The notes below the pieces were generated by a model. The model was not told the origin of the DNA, ran no database searches, and worked only from the letters and a program-made list of their open reading frames with translations. Position numbers and translations under genes: made by a program. A stretch of DNA of 64,000 nucleotides from assembly GCA_963969365.1 (NCBI GenBank), contig OZ017753.1, forward strand, positions 1,736,001-1,800,000, given 5' to 3'. The first letter of the stretch is position 1; each line of letters starts with the position of its first letter. This document shows positions 55,201 to 64,000 of this stretch, piece after piece. This stretch comes from Asterochloris sp. CNOR1. Lineage: Eukaryota; Chlorophyta; Trebouxiophyceae; Trebouxiales; Trebouxiaceae.

Positions 55201-56022
55201 CACCATGAGGAAGGTAGACATGCTGCCATCCACCCGGGCCAGCTCAATGCAGACCATGCCAGCCTCGACCACTGAGTGGCCAGGGCACCCATACCTGCAC
55301 ACAGAGGGGCAGGCAGTGGCAGTGAGTGCGGTCTTGGCAGGGGTTGCAGGGGTGTGCAGCTATGTAGAGCCGGCTGCAGGCATGGGAGGCATGACGTATG
55401 CCTCGGGATTGACATGCTGCGCGGCAGTGAATCCACCCACAGCAGGCTACTGCTGTGGCACCCAAGGGTGCTGGCTGCCCTAGCCTCAAGTGACAGGAGA
55501 TGCAGGTGACACTAGCGCAGCTTCAGACAATGCTTGGGGCTGCACGCACAGTGCCCCTCTTGCTTCAGGTGCAGATGCATTGCAGCGTGCACAAGGCAAA
55601 GAGCACCCACCCCTCTAGGGTTGCCCCTGCAACGCCCAGCTTAGCCAGCTTGGGCACCAGCTGGTGAGGAAAGGCCGCGCGCTCCCAGTAATCAGCAATG
55701 ACTGGGGCCACCTCCTGCTCCTGCAGCAAAATAAGCAGCAAAACATCAGCCTGACAGCATGCACAGTAGATTATGACTCTTGAATGAGCTGGTGTGGAAC
55801 ACCAGCGCTCACCGCAAAGGTGTGGGGCACCAGGGCTCACCGCAAAGGTGCGGACTTTGTACTTGGTGGCCTTCTCTTGCTCAGACAGCAGGTCATCCCA
55901 TTGAAGCCAATCATGGCGGGCCTCAGGGAAAGCTGCCATTGTCTGAGCATGGGGGAAGGTTGGATAGTCGCTGGCGCTTGTGGAGGCCTTGGCGTCCTGC
56001 CGCTGCAGGGCCTGCTCCTCAT
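52211..56022 (-). CDS. ACX4: Acyl-CoA oxidase ACX4 (short-chain, peroxisomal type); first exon not found
   Basis: FAD enzyme of peroxisomal beta-oxidation that oxidises short-chain acyl-CoA to enoyl-CoA with H2O2 release; ACX4 is closer to acyl-CoA dehydrogenases than to other oxidases. Exons on the minus strand: 56022-55841, 55720-55611, 55294-55144, 54714-54549, 54087-53891, 53507-53370, 52900-52759, 52594-52530, 52366-52211; in phase, about 434 residues (Arabidopsis ACX4 436). Signatures: [79 protein letters not shown] and [20 protein letters not shown] (with the catalytic Glu in the TYEGT motif). The first listed exon opens after an acceptor at 56023 and lacks an ATG, so a short 5' exon is missing. 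The last residues are ...SAEVQA, not a PTS1 such as SRL. The intron after 53370 has a GC donor. Confidence 0.94.
55801..55856 (-). repeat. 28-bp tandem duplication of an ACX4 splice donor
   Basis: Plus-strand units 55801-55828 and 55829-55856 both contain gctcaccgcaaaggtg, which in the gene's direction is ...cacctttgcg|gtgagc. The exon end and donor are therefore duplicated. The donor at 55841 keeps the ACX4 frame; the second donor-like site lies inside the intron. Confidence 0.85.
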
Positions 56023-56859
56023 CTACATGCACAGCGCAGGCTTAAGAGGGACAGATGTGTGTGAACGTGGAGGGGCCGCCCAGCTGGCGGCTGATGCCTG
56101 ACTGGTGCAATGGGGGTCCAGGCTATGCTGATGAGGAATGCATTGCTGGCAGGCAGCCACGACAAGCGATTGGTGGTGATGACATGGCAGAGTCAGCTTC
56201 GTGCGCAGGCCATCTGAGACAGCTGCACATGATTGCTGATGCACCAATTACATGGCTTCAGGGTAAAGAAGGCATGCAACACCGCAAGCAAGGAACGGGC
56301 TGCTGGTTCCATTTCGAAAGCTTGAGCACCTTCATTTGGGACATTCAAGTGGCCTGCCAGCACGTTGATCCTTGGGTTAGGAGTCTCCATTATTGCTCGG
56401 AGGTTCATGAAGAAGGAAGCAGGAGGAAGCGCAGTAGGGCTCGCTTTCGAGTTGTCACCTCGGCATGCTGTCACCCTCACCTCAGACCATGAAGGACTGG
56501 CTGAGTGTTGCCTGCTATTATATTTAGCTTTACAACACTGCAGATGTCACTCAGAAGGTGTCGTTGCATGTCAGGTGCAATGGCAGATGTCACCAAGGAC
56601 ATGGTCAAGAGGCGCTCTGAATGATCAGCCACAACACTCCTTAGCTCACACCACTGCCTAATCAGAATTTCACTTGCAGCGGAGAGCAGAGTGCATGCTG
56701 CGGAGAGGCTGTCCTGAACGACTGGATGCACTGCTCCCAGGTGCCGGGTGCAGCAGAGAGCCCTGCAGCAATGGCAGAAGAGCAGTCAGTGCCTGACACA
56801 AACAGCCTCACAGCAGCACTTGTTGCAAGTGTACCCCAACAGCAGCCCAACCCTGAGCC
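56023..56859. other. ACX4 upstream region / 3' flank of the GT2-GH9 gene
   Basis: About 840 bases. It probably holds the short first exon and promoter of ACX4, which I could not place with a matching splice phase, and the 3' UTR of the upstream gene. A minus ORF at 56193-56480 is unfamiliar. Confidence 0.4.
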
Positions 56860-59800
56860 TCACATGACACCCTCGCCCTGTGGCAGCATAGCCACGGGGC
56901 TTTGCATAGGATGCAAGAATTGTGGTGACCCACCTGCTGCCAAGCTCTGCCAGGCGGCAGTGTTTTCCAGCACGACAGCCATGTCGGACACCTTTCTGGA
57001 GTCCTGGTACACATCACTGGTTGAGCTGCCACTGGGGCCGCTGACCAAGCAGCCCTGCAGAAGATGGCACACTGCGAGTGAGATGTAGCACTGTCTCAGC
57101 AGTCTGCTTTGAGGAGGGCACGACACGTGAGGTTACCCTGAGGAGGTGATGTCGAGGTTTGTGCATTGGTTTTGCAAACTGGAGGGCTAGCCAGTCCTGG
57201 CATGCGCTGGTCATCCCTGTGGAGCAATTCATGCATGTCATGTCATGCCTGCACATAGTATGGCACAAGGACGACTAATCCTATCCCAGATGGCATGGCT
57301 GACATCCAGAGCATGCATTCAGGCATGGTGGAGCTTGTGGCTATAGGAGGGTGGTGAGCATGAGACGCTGAAAATCTGCATGGGCCACACATGTGCATGC
57401 ATCCCAGAGCTGCCTGTCATGCCAGGCTCACCCTCAGAGGCTGCGGGTTGGAGGAGGCTGCAAAGTACTGGGGCAGGCCGCAGGACGCAGGCTCATTGGG
57501 GCAGGAGGCGGCCTCGTTGGCGCAGTGCGTGCCAGGGTTGATGCCATCGCCCATGACATAGCTCCTGCAGTTGTAGGGCGCGAAAAGCTCAGACTGTGCA
57601 TTCCAAGCACAAGGGTCTGCTGTTGCTCAGGAGCTGCTGCAGGAGGCATTGGCTGAAGGTGGCAGAAGGCTTCGCCAGGCAGGCTTGAAGGGATGGCAGG
57701 CCGGCCCCAAAGTGTCCAGCGCTTGTGTACTTCAGCTATCCGCGTCACACTTTGCGTGTCCCTCAGCAGACCAGGCCGGAACCCACCTGCCGCCTGGGTG
57801 GTTGCCCAGCATGTACTGTGCCTGGGACTGTGCCCAGCAGTTGTAGGAGCGCGCCTGGCTGCTCTGGCCCTTGGCCCTGATGTCAGCGGCATGCAGTGCG
57901 GCCAGGAAGGCCACATTGGCAGTGCTGGGCAGCGTGCTGGAGTGGATGTTGTAAGCGCGGCTGTCAGCTGTGTACCTGCACACAGTGCGATGCCAGAAGG
58001 CTGCATGATCATGTTGAAGAGGCCATGCTGCTGCAGACGAGTTATCAAGCCAAGTACGCCACAGCTTGTGGGGGTTCTGTTTGCTGGGACGGCCCACACG
58101 AAGTCTGCAGGCCAGAAATGTGTGGTAGAGTCATGATGAACACTGCAGGTGGCATGCAGCAGGGTGAATTGTGCAGGCCTCACACCTCAGTCTGGCTGCT
58201 GCTGCATGAGGCTCGTGAACTCACTGCAGCAGCAGCAGCTTCCTACACAGCAGGCAATTGGCCAGGTGAGCAGAAGCCCAGGTGCACAAGCCAGATTGGC
58301 ACGGCTTACATCACATTCTGGTCATCCCCGCAGGCCCAGACGCTAAGGAAGTGCTCGACCTCGCCTACAAAAGTGGACCCCGCCCCAATAGAGGCCAGCA
58401 GGCTGTTGGCGCCCCAGTACAGGTTGTCCCAGTCAAAGTTGTACTCGCCCATGCCTGCAGCACACAGAGGGCTTCGCTGAGGCAGGGGGTGGTTGTGCAG
58501 CGAAGTGAAGGCACACCATTTCTGCACTTCAGACCGCCCCTCTGTGCCACCAGAAGGGCTGTCTTGGCAAAATATGCGATCTACAGAAGGGGCGACCATG
58601 TCAGGTCAGAAAGCATCTCACCACAAGCACTTGCCCATCGATCATGGCAGACACGACTCCCCAAGACCCAAATGAGGACGGCAGCAGACAGCTCAGTGGA
58701 AGCGGTGCATCTGCAATGCATTTGCTGTGCAAGCCCTTTGTGCATAATCTTGGCAACGAAGAATTACTGCCGGCTGCACATGTGTGAGAGGAAGACATGC
58801 CTCACCATCCTGGTTGTTAGTCATGAAGGACTGGTAGAAGCCCACAGCATCCGTAAGGTAGCTGTTAGTGGTGGTGGCCGCGTACATCCAGCTGGCAGCC
58901 CACAAAAGGTCATCTGTCACAGTGCTGGAGGGGTACAGGTAGACCGCATCACCACATGCTGGGAACTGGTTCAGGTTGGTGTCACCTGCAGAGTGGACCA
59001 GCAGACTTAGACTGCTGGTGTCCAGTTACAGCCTGTTGGACTGTAGGGCTGAAAATTGCGTTTCATGCATGGACATGGGTAGAGGTGTCCACAAACAGCC
59101 AGCTGGAACTGCAGCACATCTGCCACGATGCCAGCTGCTCCCTTGCACCTGCTGATGCCATGCTAAGTTGAGTTGTTCAGAAGGAAGTCCTCAACTGTGG
59201 CAATGGGACCCATCACCAAGCGTCTGTGGTGCATGCAAGAATCAAATGCACCTGTGGCAGTAGTGCCCCCACTGGTGGTGGCGGTTCTGACAGTGCTGGC
59301 TGTGCTAGCCGTGGTAGTGGCAGGGGCAGACGTGGCAGCAGAAGTTGCCTTCTTGGTGGTGGCTGGGGCAGCGGTGGTGGCTGTGGTGGCATTCAGGGCC
59401 TGAATGATGAAGCTGTCGTCGCTGGTGGTGTAGGTGCTGGAGGCTGCAATGCCTGCGGGGGCTGCAGTGCTGGCTGAGGTGGTTGCATAGTAGTCATACG
59501 GCAGCACGGCTGCAGCGTCTGTGCCTGTGCCGGTCTGCAGCAGGCGGCGGCTGGTTACCTTTGAGGGGGCTGTGGTGGTGCTGGGGGTGGTCAGCTTGCT
59601 GGCAGCTGTGGTTGCTGGGCTGGCTGTGGCAGACATAGTTGTGGCTGCGGGGGCAGTGGTCGCGACTGGGGAGCTGGCCACTGGCGTCAGTGAGGCAAAG
59701 GAGACTGAGTCGCCATTGGCGTGGCAGTTGGCCATGGCTGCTGTGGAGTAGGTCACTGCTGGGGAGCTGGTGGCAGAGGTGTATAGGGTTTCGGCTGCCT

Positions 59801-62800
59801 GCAGCAAGGTCAGGTGCTGGCAAGTCCCCAACAATGACAATGCCCAGGGACATTGCAGGAGGCAAGCCCAGATAAGCACCAGAACGGGGCAGCAGCGCAT
59901 GAGACAGAGGCTCAACTGGTCAGCATTGCTCTCTTCTATGGGAGTGGGGCGTTAACAAGCTGGCACTTGCAGCAGAGCAGGGTAAAGGCACTGGGCAAGC
60001 ACAAGTCCTCTGTTTGCAGACACGCACTCAACACAGACAAGACCTGTTTCTCAGAGAGCAGCCTGACTTGCTCTCACATTGTGTTCAATCTTGCCAGATG
60101 ACATGACAAACTGTGACCGCGAGAAGACTGCTGTCAGAACATGCCAATCCTGCCAGACGCGGTTGTGGTGAACTCACCGTGAGCAGAGTGTCAGAGTAAC
60201 CATCGTCCACGCCCCGCCAGACGATGGCTGAGGCAGCAAAGGCTGCCACCATCTGGCTGGCCAGGTCAGCAGCCCCTGTGGCCATGAGCATGCTGTAGTA
60301 GGGGCGGTTGAGGATGTCGATGTCCTCTGGCCTGCCATAGAATGCCTGATCCACAGTCCAGTTGCCGGACTGCACGAGAAGCAAAGAGTGCGTGAAAGCA
60401 CACCTTGCTCCTCAAACAGTGCAGTCAGGGCCTCATCCATGGACTGTGCAGGGTGTGCATTGCGTCGCATAATAAGCAGAGTGCATGAAAGTGTCTGAGT
60501 GTGGCATTTGTCAATAGCAGTGCTGAAGCCAGCCGGCGTTTGCAGACACACCAGATGCCAATGCAGAGCACAGCTCAGCAGAAGCACAAGGTTTGCAGCT
60601 CGGCAGCCCCCACCTGGTAGACCAGCTCTATGCCATCAATGCCAGTGGCCACACACTTGAGGAGGTAGTCTGTGCCCCACCGGATCTCTGCTAGAGCCTG
60701 CAGGGCAGCAGCAGCTCATCAGCCTCTGGCAGCTGCCCACAGGTGTGGCCACAGCATCAGCCATGCTGGGTGTCAGAAAGTTTGATGCATCACACAACAC
60801 AGCTCCAGCTGACTGAAAGCCTACCATAGGCTTGCCAGAAGACGCTGCAGCACTCCTTAGAAGGGGCGACAATCAGTCTACATGATTTTGATGTGCTACA
60901 CAATCAGACAAGTGCAGGACAGTGAAGCTGCAGCAGAACACATGCGACATACTTTGGCACGTGAGGTCTCAGTCTTGTAGCCGCTGGGGAAGGCCACAAG
61001 GCCCCAGGCCAGCATAGAGGTAGTGAAGGCGGTGGGCAGTGTCAGCTTCAAGTTGCCAGCATCGCCGCCTTGTAGCCAACCGCCTGCAGGGCAACAGGGA
61101 CACATCAGCCCCCAGAGCCACCTGATGTTGCTCAAATCTGACCCAGGCCATACGGAGGATGCTTGCAGGTGCAGTCATCCTGACATGGCCCCTGACAACC
61201 AGTCACCATGCCAGGTGCTCACATCAGGATGGTCAGCAGGCAACCAGCACTGCTGAGCATGGAAGGCTGCCCAGATAAGAGCACATCAAGTCATCTGGCA
61301 GCAGGCACTGATCATTGCCACCTTGTGGTTCGCCTAGTTTGAGACACCCTTGCTGAGCGACAGCCCCCTCATTAAGCAGCACATCAGCTGCTCAGTCAAA
61401 GGGCAGAGCCGTCTTGTCTGAAGCACCCCAGGCGCAGCAGCTCCCCTCAAAGTGAGCCATGAAAATGCTGTTAGCAAATCCCCAGTGCCTTTAGTGCTGG
61501 CCACACTAGCCTCAGCCGCCTGTGCTGACTGCAAGCGGCATGCAGCACTGCTGACACCTAACTTGTTCCTGCCCCTGCGCCCCTGTCAGGTCGACACTGA
61601 CAGGGCTACCGTCAGCAGGCAACTGCTGAGCTTCAAGCTGCCGGATACAGAGGACTCACAAGTGATCAACAGCAGCTTTGCCAGCATGGTCTAGTCGGCT
61701 TCTGCAGCCAGCACATTGCTGTGCAAGATGCATGGAGCAATGCCAACAGCACTCTCCCCAGGCCTGGAGGTGCAGCAGGCCTCCACTCACCTGTCAGATC
61801 GGCGCCACCAGGACCAGAGTCAGCTGCCAGCGCCGTGGCCCGCCAGGAGACGTCATTGTCAGCTGGCAGGGTCCCCACTCGCTGGGCGCGGTAGGAGAAG
61901 GTTGCGTCATCAGCAATGGTGGCAAAATTCATGCGCCCGGGTAGCAGCACCCAGAGCAGGATGACAGCCACACCCACCAGGATGATGGAGGCAAAGAAGC
62001 CCAGGATGCAGGCCCACTGCAGCCGATGCAGCGATAACCAGTTTGCATATAAAGGCTTCCTGAGTGTTATATGTCGCCAATTCAGTGCTGGAAGGATGCT
62101 TGACCACTGCCGCCAGAAGGGGATAGCTACTTGTAGGCAGGGAGTGGCTGAGGAACCTGCTCCAACTTGAGGCAAGGCAGCGGGCTGGAGACTTGGCAGG
62201 CTGGTCTATACAGCCTGACACAGGTGGATGCTCAAGGCAAGCAAGCGCCAGGCGTGCATTGCACTGCATGCCTCTGGTCACAGTGCATGGAGCAGACTGC
62301 ATCGTGAAGGGAACTCCACTTTGCTGGCCAGTCAATGGCAGCCTCAGTGCATGAGGGGCCCAGCAAGCACCCCGCAGTCAACAGTAATTGGTTCCCAGCC
62401 TCACCATGAAAGTCCAATGCTTGCGCATGGCAACATAGCAGAACATGAGGGCCAGGGGGATGATGTTGAACAGCGTCCACACCAGACAGAGCGCCAGCGG
62501 CTGAGATTGGTACCCGCCCTCAGAGCCCAGCTTAGCTGCAGCGCCAATGGCTGAGATGATAAGCAGCCCTAGCATGAGGCCAGGGGCCCACAGCTCGTCA
62601 GCAATGTCTGCTGCCTGCACACAGGGTGTGCAGCGATCTGAGTCATCAATGGAACGGATGTTGTATTTGCAGCCATGTAGCCGAGGCACAGCAATGCGTG
62701 TACCCAGCAGCACTCTTGCCGCCTGCACAGCCGCATGCAGCGCTGGGCATCATCTGCAAGAACCTGCTGTACGTGTCTCTGTGACCACCTGGCCCTGGAT

Positions 62801-64000
62801 CAGCCAGGATTGTGGCCAGCAGCACTGCCACTGCCTGCACAGGGGCAAGCAGCGCTTGGGGTCATCACTGTAAGGGCGGCCGTCAAGTGGCATAGCTACT
62901 GTATTCTGGGCAGCGGCCGCCATCCCTCATAGCTGCATAGTCCTGCACTGCAGTGTTACTCCTAGACTGACCTTGTCCCAAGACAGTCCCACAGCTCTCA
63001 GGAGCAACCCCAGCTCACCTCTAACACCCGGGTCTGGATGCCTGCCTTGGACTGGTCTGCTTTCTCACCCCCAGGCACCTTTGAGATCTTGAAAGCGTTG
63101 TACTTGGGCATGACCTGCATAGCACACAAGGGGCGCCTATTGTCTTCCTGGGCATGGACAGTTGGTAAGTGAGACACCTGGACATGACCTGCAGGCATGG
63201 CAGCTAAGCTGAGGCACTGAAGGTCCTTGGGCCCAAAGTTGAGCACGGCCTGCTATAACACTGGGTCACAACGGGGCATGGAGCGTAGGCAAGCTCCATC
63301 CAGGTAGAGCACCTGGCAACAAGGCAAGGCAGGACGAGCATGCACCCGGGTGCATGTTGTGCAACAATGGCTCTGGGTCCCAATCATCTGGTGGCAGGTC
63401 TGGCAGGTGCAGGAGTGGTGTGCAGGCCTGTCGCGAGCGTGTGTGCAGCCTGCACCCGCCTGGAAGCTCCCTGCTGACGCCCCGCCCCAAGAAAAGCAGG
63501 CATCATGCACCTTGCAGATCATCAAGCCTTGCCCTGGTGCAGTCGGGCACAGTCATGTGATCTGTCGTGCAAGCCCAGTCATGTATCAGCATGCTTGCCC
63601 TGCCAGCACCACCTCCCACAGTCTGCGTAAGCAATACCCACCACGCATGTGATGACTCAGCGTCTCCAAACAGCTAGCTTCACCATGCCCAGGACCACCT
63701 CTTTCAGTGTATTGCAGGCATGTCCCTCGCATCAGAGCTGCGCAGGCTGGCAAAGCAGGCCGCTCCACCTGGGCACACACTCATTCTGGTGCAGGGTCAG
63801 GCAATGCCTGCATGCCAGAGGCTCACCCTGCCTAGCACCACCTCTCCCAGGTTGCGCAGGTAGGTCCACCACATGAGGGAGCCATTCAGGCTGGCAAAGT
63901 AGGCTGCCTCCACGTGCACAATCCTCCGCACATTGTACAGAATCAGGTGCACGGCCAGCAGGTAGACTGAGATGGCCAGAGCCACCCACCTGCAGGGCAG
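56860..64000 (-). CDS. Fusion: cellulose-synthase-like GT2 C-terminal membrane region + GH9 endoglucanase-like domain (5' end beyond window)
   Basis: Exons on the minus strand: 63989-63827, 63114-63019, 62614-62405, 62016-61791, 61083-60953, 60697-60614, 60369-60178, 59798-59252, 58985-58806, 58454-58310, 57975-57787, 57564-57432, 57054-56860; all phases agree (about 830 codons visible). The first three encode a BcsA/CesA-like C-terminus: membrane helices, LRNLGEVVLGR, then KYNAFKISKV (compare the FKVTPK element of processive GT2 synthases) and two more helices; the catalytic D,D,D,QxxRW motifs would lie past 64000. The fourth begins with a helix (ACILGFFASIILVGVAVILL) and leads into GH9: LPTAFTTSMLAWG, EIRWGTDYLLK, RPEDIDI, TDDLLWAASWMYAA, FDWDNLYWGANSLLA, AQYMLGNHPGG, GCLVSGPS. 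Expected topology is synthase in the cytosol and GH9 outside. The DAGD, HHR and NEVA active-site motifs are degenerate. The stop at 56860 assumes no further intron after 56934. The alternative is two adjacent genes. Confidence 0.75.
59252..59798 (-). other. 182-residue Thr/Ala/Ser-rich exon inside the GH9 domain
   Basis: This single exon starts AAETLYTSATSS, which fits the GH9 'AK-LY-FA' helix, then runs into low-complexity sequence dominated by Thr, Ala, Ser and Pro with an RRLLQ patch, and rejoins GH9 at GDTNLNQFPACGDAVY in the next exon. Both ends splice in phase. It resembles mucin-like O-glycosylated linkers. Confidence 0.75.
63600..63790 (-). repeat. Decayed copies of the GT2 exon at 63827-63989
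   Basis: Plus-strand 63600-63645 (gccagcaccacctcccacag...) and 63686-63726 both echo the exon end and donor at 63821-63862 (gcctagcaccacctctcccag...). 63744-63775 (ggctggcaaagcaggccg) echoes 63889-63912 (ggctggcaaagtaggctg). All lie in the intron downstream of the exon. Confidence 0.75.

Follow-up and report, generated by a model that had tools for sequence, protein, structure and literature searches.

A predicted single chain uniting a cellulose-synthase-type GT2 domain with a GH9 domain that has lost its catalytic motifs in Asterochloris and related green algae

The fused gene at the locus

A 64-kb stretch of the Asterochloris sp. CNOR1 genome (contig C8:1736001-1800000, hereafter the window; the genome spans 56.4 Mb in 21 contigs) contains on its minus strand part of a gene predicted to join, in one polypeptide, a glycosyltransferase of the cellulose synthase type (family GT2) and a domain of the cellulase family GH9. 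Reading was continued beyond position 64000, and the gene extends from L010, an upstream stretch of the same contig (5703 to 436), into the window (63989 to 56662). The hand-checked model comprises 24 exons encoding 1384 amino acids, with a single terminal stop at 56662-56664, 22 GT-AG introns and one GC-AG intron. The predicted order of the product is a proline-rich N-terminus, two helices, the GT2 domain, five helices and GH9, with seven predicted membrane helices in all. In the spliced protein, Pfam profile PF00759 is matched with an E-value of 2.7e-73 and PF00535 with 25.0 bits against a cut-off of 23.3, while PF13641 reaches 26.5 bits, slightly below its cut-off of 27.

Exons 1-10 lie in L010 5703-436, past the window end, and exons 11-24 fall within 56662..64000 of the window. 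Exon 11 (63827..63989) encodes a membrane helix of the GT2 half (WVALAISVYLLAVHLILYNVRR), exon 12 (63019..63114) a loop that the family alignment assigns to the GT2 membrane domain (VMPKYNAFKISKVPGG), and exon 13 (62405..62614) the fifth and sixth GT2-half helices as identified by hydropathy and alignment. The sequence-only reading of this DNA had exon 62614-62405 end in phase 0 at the donor GTGAGGCT (GTGAGG) and the next exon start at 62016, also in phase 0, after the acceptor GGCTGCAG (TGCAG), opening into the membrane helix WACILGFFASIILVGVAVILLWVLLPG followed by GH9 sequence. Each of these features is seen in the sequence, and the GH9 exons continue to the stop codon. Exon 14 (61791..62016) carries the seventh helix and, unbroken, about the first 50 GH9 residues, and constitutes the fusion boundary.

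The GH9 domain continues through exon 15 (60953..61083), which reads GGWLQGGDAGNLKL instead of GGWYDAGDHVKF, the first catalytic Asp being replaced by Gln and the second retained; exon 16 (60614..60697); exon 17 (60178..60369), where the His of DHxWWG is Gln; exon 18 (59252..59798), which holds a long Ala/Thr/Ser-rich insertion; and exons 19 (58806..58985), 20 (58310..58454) and 21 (57787..57975). Exon 22 (57432..57564) has CANE where canonical GH9 references have PHHR, exon 23 (56934..57054) has Ala at the position of the catalytic Glu (DMAVVLENTAA against NNEVATDYNAA), and exon 24 (56662..56762) encodes the C-terminus and the stop. The metagenome relatives P0038-P0040, P0051, P0053 and P0055 carry Gly/Phe/Asp-rich stretches ahead of the GH9 GG motif, where the window copy has the exon 18 insertion instead.

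The sequence-only reading had taken intron 62405/62016 as the fusion boundary. This placement had to be revised: the family alignment puts that intron between two helices within the GT2 membrane domain, and the true junction, from last helix to GH9, runs uninterrupted within exon 62016-61791. Homologues that lack GH9 (locus C6a of this genome and Coccomyxa P0046 and P0047) retain both final helices and end soon afterwards, which makes the last helix part of the GT2 half; a Haematococcus row aligned poorly in this comparison and was left out. The last two helices share a single exon at loci C16, C8a, C4a and C4b, and at C1 an intron cuts within the last helix. From the upstream stop to the helix preceding GH9, the window sequence has no in-frame ATG, which bears out the earlier remark that no ATG-started first exon of a GH9 gene is visible there. 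Six other loci of the genome repeat the order GT2 then GH9 on one strand, which places the arrangement beyond chance. Judged from gene structure, the fusion is real, a single chain encoded by one gene.

A coding-score decoder was also run without constraint on the seven fused loci; it is crude, and several of its models of other loci include intron stretches. (An earlier decoder with weak penalties was discarded, as it strung together entire loci of 20 kb into meaningless genes.) It returned one gene across both halves at C14, C16, C8a and C4b, the C8a model containing one in-frame stop that was treated as X thereafter. Several points weigh against a single gene: under the decoder the window gene falls into four pieces, with the breaks in the GT2 half (score 1779.2 vs 1775.3 for one gene), C4a is split within GT2 (2113.4 vs 2109.2) and C1 within GH9 (2092.2 vs 2090.8), splice sites in the window model were a manual choice, and the fusion gene is read from genomic sequence. 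None of the breaks falls at the GT2-GH9 junction, and the final GT2 membrane exons and first GH9 exons were kept together at all seven loci. Among fused proteins from metagenomes, eleven are encoded on short single contigs in which 221 to 1546 nucleotides remain outside the coding sequence (274 for P0022, 414 for P0015); the tightest of these contigs offer little room for introns, as the fused coding sequence almost fills them.

Spread and history of the fusion

The genome holds seven fused loci, the window copy together with C1, C14, C4a, C4b, C16 and C8a, and PF13632 has four matches in it. When the C1 model was searched against public databases, 46 of the 71 matches combined a GT2 family (PF13632 and/or PF13641) with PF00759. 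The named fused proteins come from ten genera: Trebouxia, Myrmecia, Coccomyxa, Elliptochloris, Symbiochloris, Botryococcus, Apatococcus, Chlorella, Auxenochlorella and Micractinium. The six genera checked in the NCBI taxonomy all belong to Trebouxiophyceae, as presumably do the remaining four. The search of related algal proteins that the sequence-only reading had proposed thus leaves no single odd gene. In P0027 and P0036 (Chlorella sorokiniana and C. ohadii), the public models add an FGGY-kinase domain (PF02782) to the GT2-GH9 protein, and one source names them D-ribulose kinase; these models are probably merged neighbouring genes.

Trees of each half were obtained by quick searches with SH-aLRT support only; a program warning flags C4b and the window copy as long branches whose position is uncertain. 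Many terminal groups recur in both trees: C1 pairs with a Trebouxia protein, two Trebouxia proteins join C14, C4a groups with proteins of Trebouxia, Elliptochloris and Coccomyxa, and a Chlorella-type group is shared as well. They disagree on deeper branches and on some rows (P0015; P0010 with Symbiochloris). Shared groups of this kind are expected if a single old fusion was later duplicated. In the GT2 tree, C6a and the GT2-only proteins of Coccomyxa group together with support 97 inside the fusion clade, a nesting that suggests later loss of GH9, while the GT2-only relative in Haematococcus (Chlorophyceae) is a long branch whose placement is unsure. The window copy has branch lengths of 1.98 in the GT2 tree and 0.93 in the GH9 tree.

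Introns of the window gene appear to hold decayed exon-like copies: the 28 nucleotides at 63680-63707 repeat the end of exon 11 (63823-63850) at 82 %, and a site near position 90 of L010 looks by eye like the start of exon 11. Downstream of the fused gene, an open frame on the minus strand at 55565-56041 resembles, by eye, an acyl-CoA dehydrogenase/oxidase.

Catalytic motifs and topology

In sequence searches with the Myrmecia member P0003, the best solved relative is BcsA (E-value 2e-27), and the predicted model of P0013 matches the BcsA/cellulose synthase fold and its membrane domain. The GT2 motifs were compared in an alignment of 65 database rows, including seven outgroup rows (bacterial or unnamed), with the 12 commonest variants displayed; DxD is present in all 65, ED in all 63 displayed rows and QxxRW in all 62. 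Within this genome, six of eight loci (C1, C14, C4a, C6a, C16 and C8a) keep all four motifs, D / DxD / TED / QxxRW. The GT2 half of typical members most likely makes a beta-glucan. A Pfam scan of six proteins listed no PilZ domain.

The sequence-only reading had proposed looking past position 64000 for a D,D,D,QxxRW core upstream. A GT2 domain does precede in frame, although its core is not intact: the motifs read VDDSQ / FKSDQ / CAESW / TDHNIRSK, with VDD retained and the other three replaced. C4b has likewise lost its GT2 motifs. The median identity ratio is 0.96 in the window copy and 0.81 in C4b, as compared with 1.21-1.44 in five others, and these lower values indicate, for both copies, relatively faster divergence of the GT2 half than of the GH9 half. 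C4b (C4:1866463-1876245), with degenerate GT2 motifs, and C4a (C4:1826884-1836832), with intact ones, lie about 30 kb apart on the same contig and strand.

For the GH9 half, the residue counts started from 74 proteins in which a GH9-like stretch is present; those with a partial GH9, 15 in number, were dropped beforehand, leaving 50 fusion-family rows (seven from this genome and 43 from databases, six or more of the 43 truncated at the GT2 end) and nine references. The references are canonical GH9 proteins returned by chance in the searches, one of them named (Kitasatospora), and part of their invariance reflects shared ancestry, as they are simply those the searches returned. DAGD with its catalytic base occurs in none of the 50 fusion-family rows and in all nine references, and the catalytic Glu of the NEVA motif in none of 49 rows and again in all nine; the motif around this Glu is missing from all 50 rows. 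The His, Trp, Arg and Tyr positions invariant in the references are mostly lost as well, and a pairwise alignment of P0003 with the Eisenia GH9 revealed identical losses. Two PROSITE-style patterns were also applied, the first of which matched only six of the nine references. The name endoglucanase, given to this domain in the sequence-only reading, is accordingly not supported. The sole GH9 cluster in the genome without a visible upstream GT2 match to the other loci (L024 6694-6814, C6:2566694-2566814, minus strand) reads GGYYEAGGSYLKLG and has no DAGD, so that the motif is found at none of the eight GH9 loci seen. In the output of the discarded first decoder, a Cys-rich, Kazal-like stretch precedes this cluster. 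The GH9 fold, in contrast to these residues, is predicted to be kept across the whole domain, with 30-39 % identity in the first 22 structure rows; the Foldseek and VIA-align rows derive from one family member, P0013.

A hydropathy scan of the window protein gives two helices before GT2 and five after it, and the helices of the P0013 model can also be read as two plus five. Such an arrangement would put GH9 on the opposite side of the membrane from GT2, with the GT2 domain in the cytosol and the C-terminal GH9 domain outside it. Sequons for N-glycosylation in 42 proteins fit this orientation, with 248 in the GH9 half against 167 expected and 67 in the GT2 half against 102 expected. Only a few residues separate the last helix from the start of GH9 (in P0013 the helices span 583-610 and 617-630), and GH9 should therefore be unable to swing far from the membrane; it may lie over the channel exit.

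Proposed role, alternatives and known parallels

These results suggest a model, which we hold with moderate confidence, in which the family consists of BcsA/CesA-type synthases bearing at their exit a GH9 cleft that takes up the chain without cutting it. The GT2 half of typical members would polymerise beta-glucan and push the chain across the membrane, and the GH9 cleft would bind, hold or straighten the emerging chain; holding instead of trimming is proposed because the cellulase fold is kept and the cutting residues are lost. The window copy would be a diverged paralogue that has lost GT2 catalytic motifs as well and has most likely been kept as a partner subunit that does not synthesise, or as a membrane protein that binds glucan. 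A more specific version, which we put forward only tentatively, regards the family as trebouxiophyte synthases with a non-hydrolytic GH9 exit cap, parallel to tunicate CesA-GH6, and the window gene and C4b as dead-synthase subunits with a structural or regulatory role in a hetero-oligomeric synthase.

Several observations speak against the model of a non-cutting cleft with a persisting partner subunit. The second Asp is retained in nine of 49 rows, among them the window copy, and in 34 of 50 a Glu stands four residues past the lost one, or one helical turn away; with both, altered rather than absent catalysis is still conceivable. Some reference-invariant positions not known to have a catalytic role, such as K260 (0/50) and P474 (0/49), are also changed, and not every residue change thus bears on catalysis. 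Hydropathy of four other proteins gave five to seven segments, one long stretch apparently being two helices, and the GH9 half of the window copy has just two sequons. Orthologue searches, in which only the top word-sharing candidates (7992 and 7989) were scored, returned ten and three protein matches, the best at 37 % identity, and no close relative of the window copy; this does not establish that orthologues are absent, and it leaves conservation of the doubly non-catalytic state without support.

It is rather unlikely, though the strongest of the competing explanations, that the window copy is a relic in decay towards a pseudogene. The absence of catalytic residues from both halves, the long branch, the lack of a close relative among the scored candidates and the scarcity of GH9 sequons would all follow from decay, but 1384 codons have stayed open across 24 exons with consensus-like splice sites despite about two changes per column on the GT2 branch, and seven hydrophobic helices are retained. 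A bifunctional protein, in which GT2 makes the chain and GH9 edits or cuts it through an altered active site, seems distinctly improbable: the kept fold, the second Asp and the displaced Glu argue for it, while the complete loss of DAGD and of Glu at the acid position, together with the further reference-invariant positions mostly lost, argues against it. Scarcely credible, and rejected on exon sharing and the database fusions, is that splice-site reading wrongly joined two adjacent genes, one for GT2 and one for a membrane-anchored GH9 as in a KORRIGAN-like pair. In its favour, the joined gene is read from genomic sequence, and the decoder did not return the window copy, C1 or C4a as one complete gene. 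Against it, GH9-less homologues retain the helix that precedes GH9 as part of their GT2 half; the window gene has this helix in one exon with GH9 and no in-frame ATG before it, four paralogues have it in one exon with the GT2 helix ahead of it, and no decoder break separates the halves.

The model of a chain-holding GH9 domain finds its closest parallel in tunicate CesA, which also combines in one chain a cellulose-synthase-type GT2 and a C-terminal cellulase-family domain with hydrolase residues lost; its GH6 domain is without a catalytic Asp and is termed likely functionless (PMC10334666). The tunicate domain is GH6 and found in animals, whereas the algal one is GH9, has lost both catalytic motifs, and is present in ten named genera, with several copies per genome; the resemblance is one of convergence upon the same kind of architecture, not of common descent. 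KORRIGAN (GH9A) is likewise a membrane-anchored GH9 tied to cellulose synthase, described as a separate beta-1,4-glucanase associated with the synthase (PMC9099982). In contrast with that stand-alone enzyme and its own N-terminal membrane span, the algal GH9 is attached to the synthase's own final helix and lacks catalytic residues. Bacterial BcsA shares the GT2 core and membrane domain, being the best solved relative by sequence and matching in fold, but differs in that the six algal proteins scanned have no listed PilZ and their hydrolase-family domain is a fused GH9; the bacterial cellulose hydrolase BcsZ is a separate GH8. The GH9 endoglucanases of Eisenia, termite and Thermobifida (E4) share the fold across the whole domain and differ from the algal family in keeping the catalytic Asp pair and Glu. 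The sequence-only reading, which set a GT2-GH9 chain in an alga apart from KORRIGAN, BcsZ and tunicate CesA-GH6, is upheld on that point by exon sharing, paralogues and database fusions.

That reading also knew of no description, and none was found in the open-licence literature of PMC, a scope that leaves out subscription journals, preprints outside PMC and supplements. Papers on algal GT2 proteins, walls and lichen algae (PMC3797821, PMC4023592, PMC3091534, PMC9915684, PMC10762512, PMC11126685 and PMC12712428), searched by term, yielded no passage describing such a fusion. The proteins themselves are already public under generic names, among them cellulase, endoglucanase, six-hairpin glycosidase and hypothetical protein, with a few bearing the synthase name instead; what is new is the recognition and not the sequences, and the mixture of names is a warning to annotators.

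Why the cellulose-making machinery of plants includes a cellulase is a long-standing question of the KORRIGAN field. Many algae appear to lock synthase and cellulase fold into one chain, with the fold held and the cutting residues gone. Together with tunicate CesA-GH6, the algal fusion suggests that what makes the cellulase useful can be its chain-holding cleft, an idea open to testing in algae that are culturable and sequenced.
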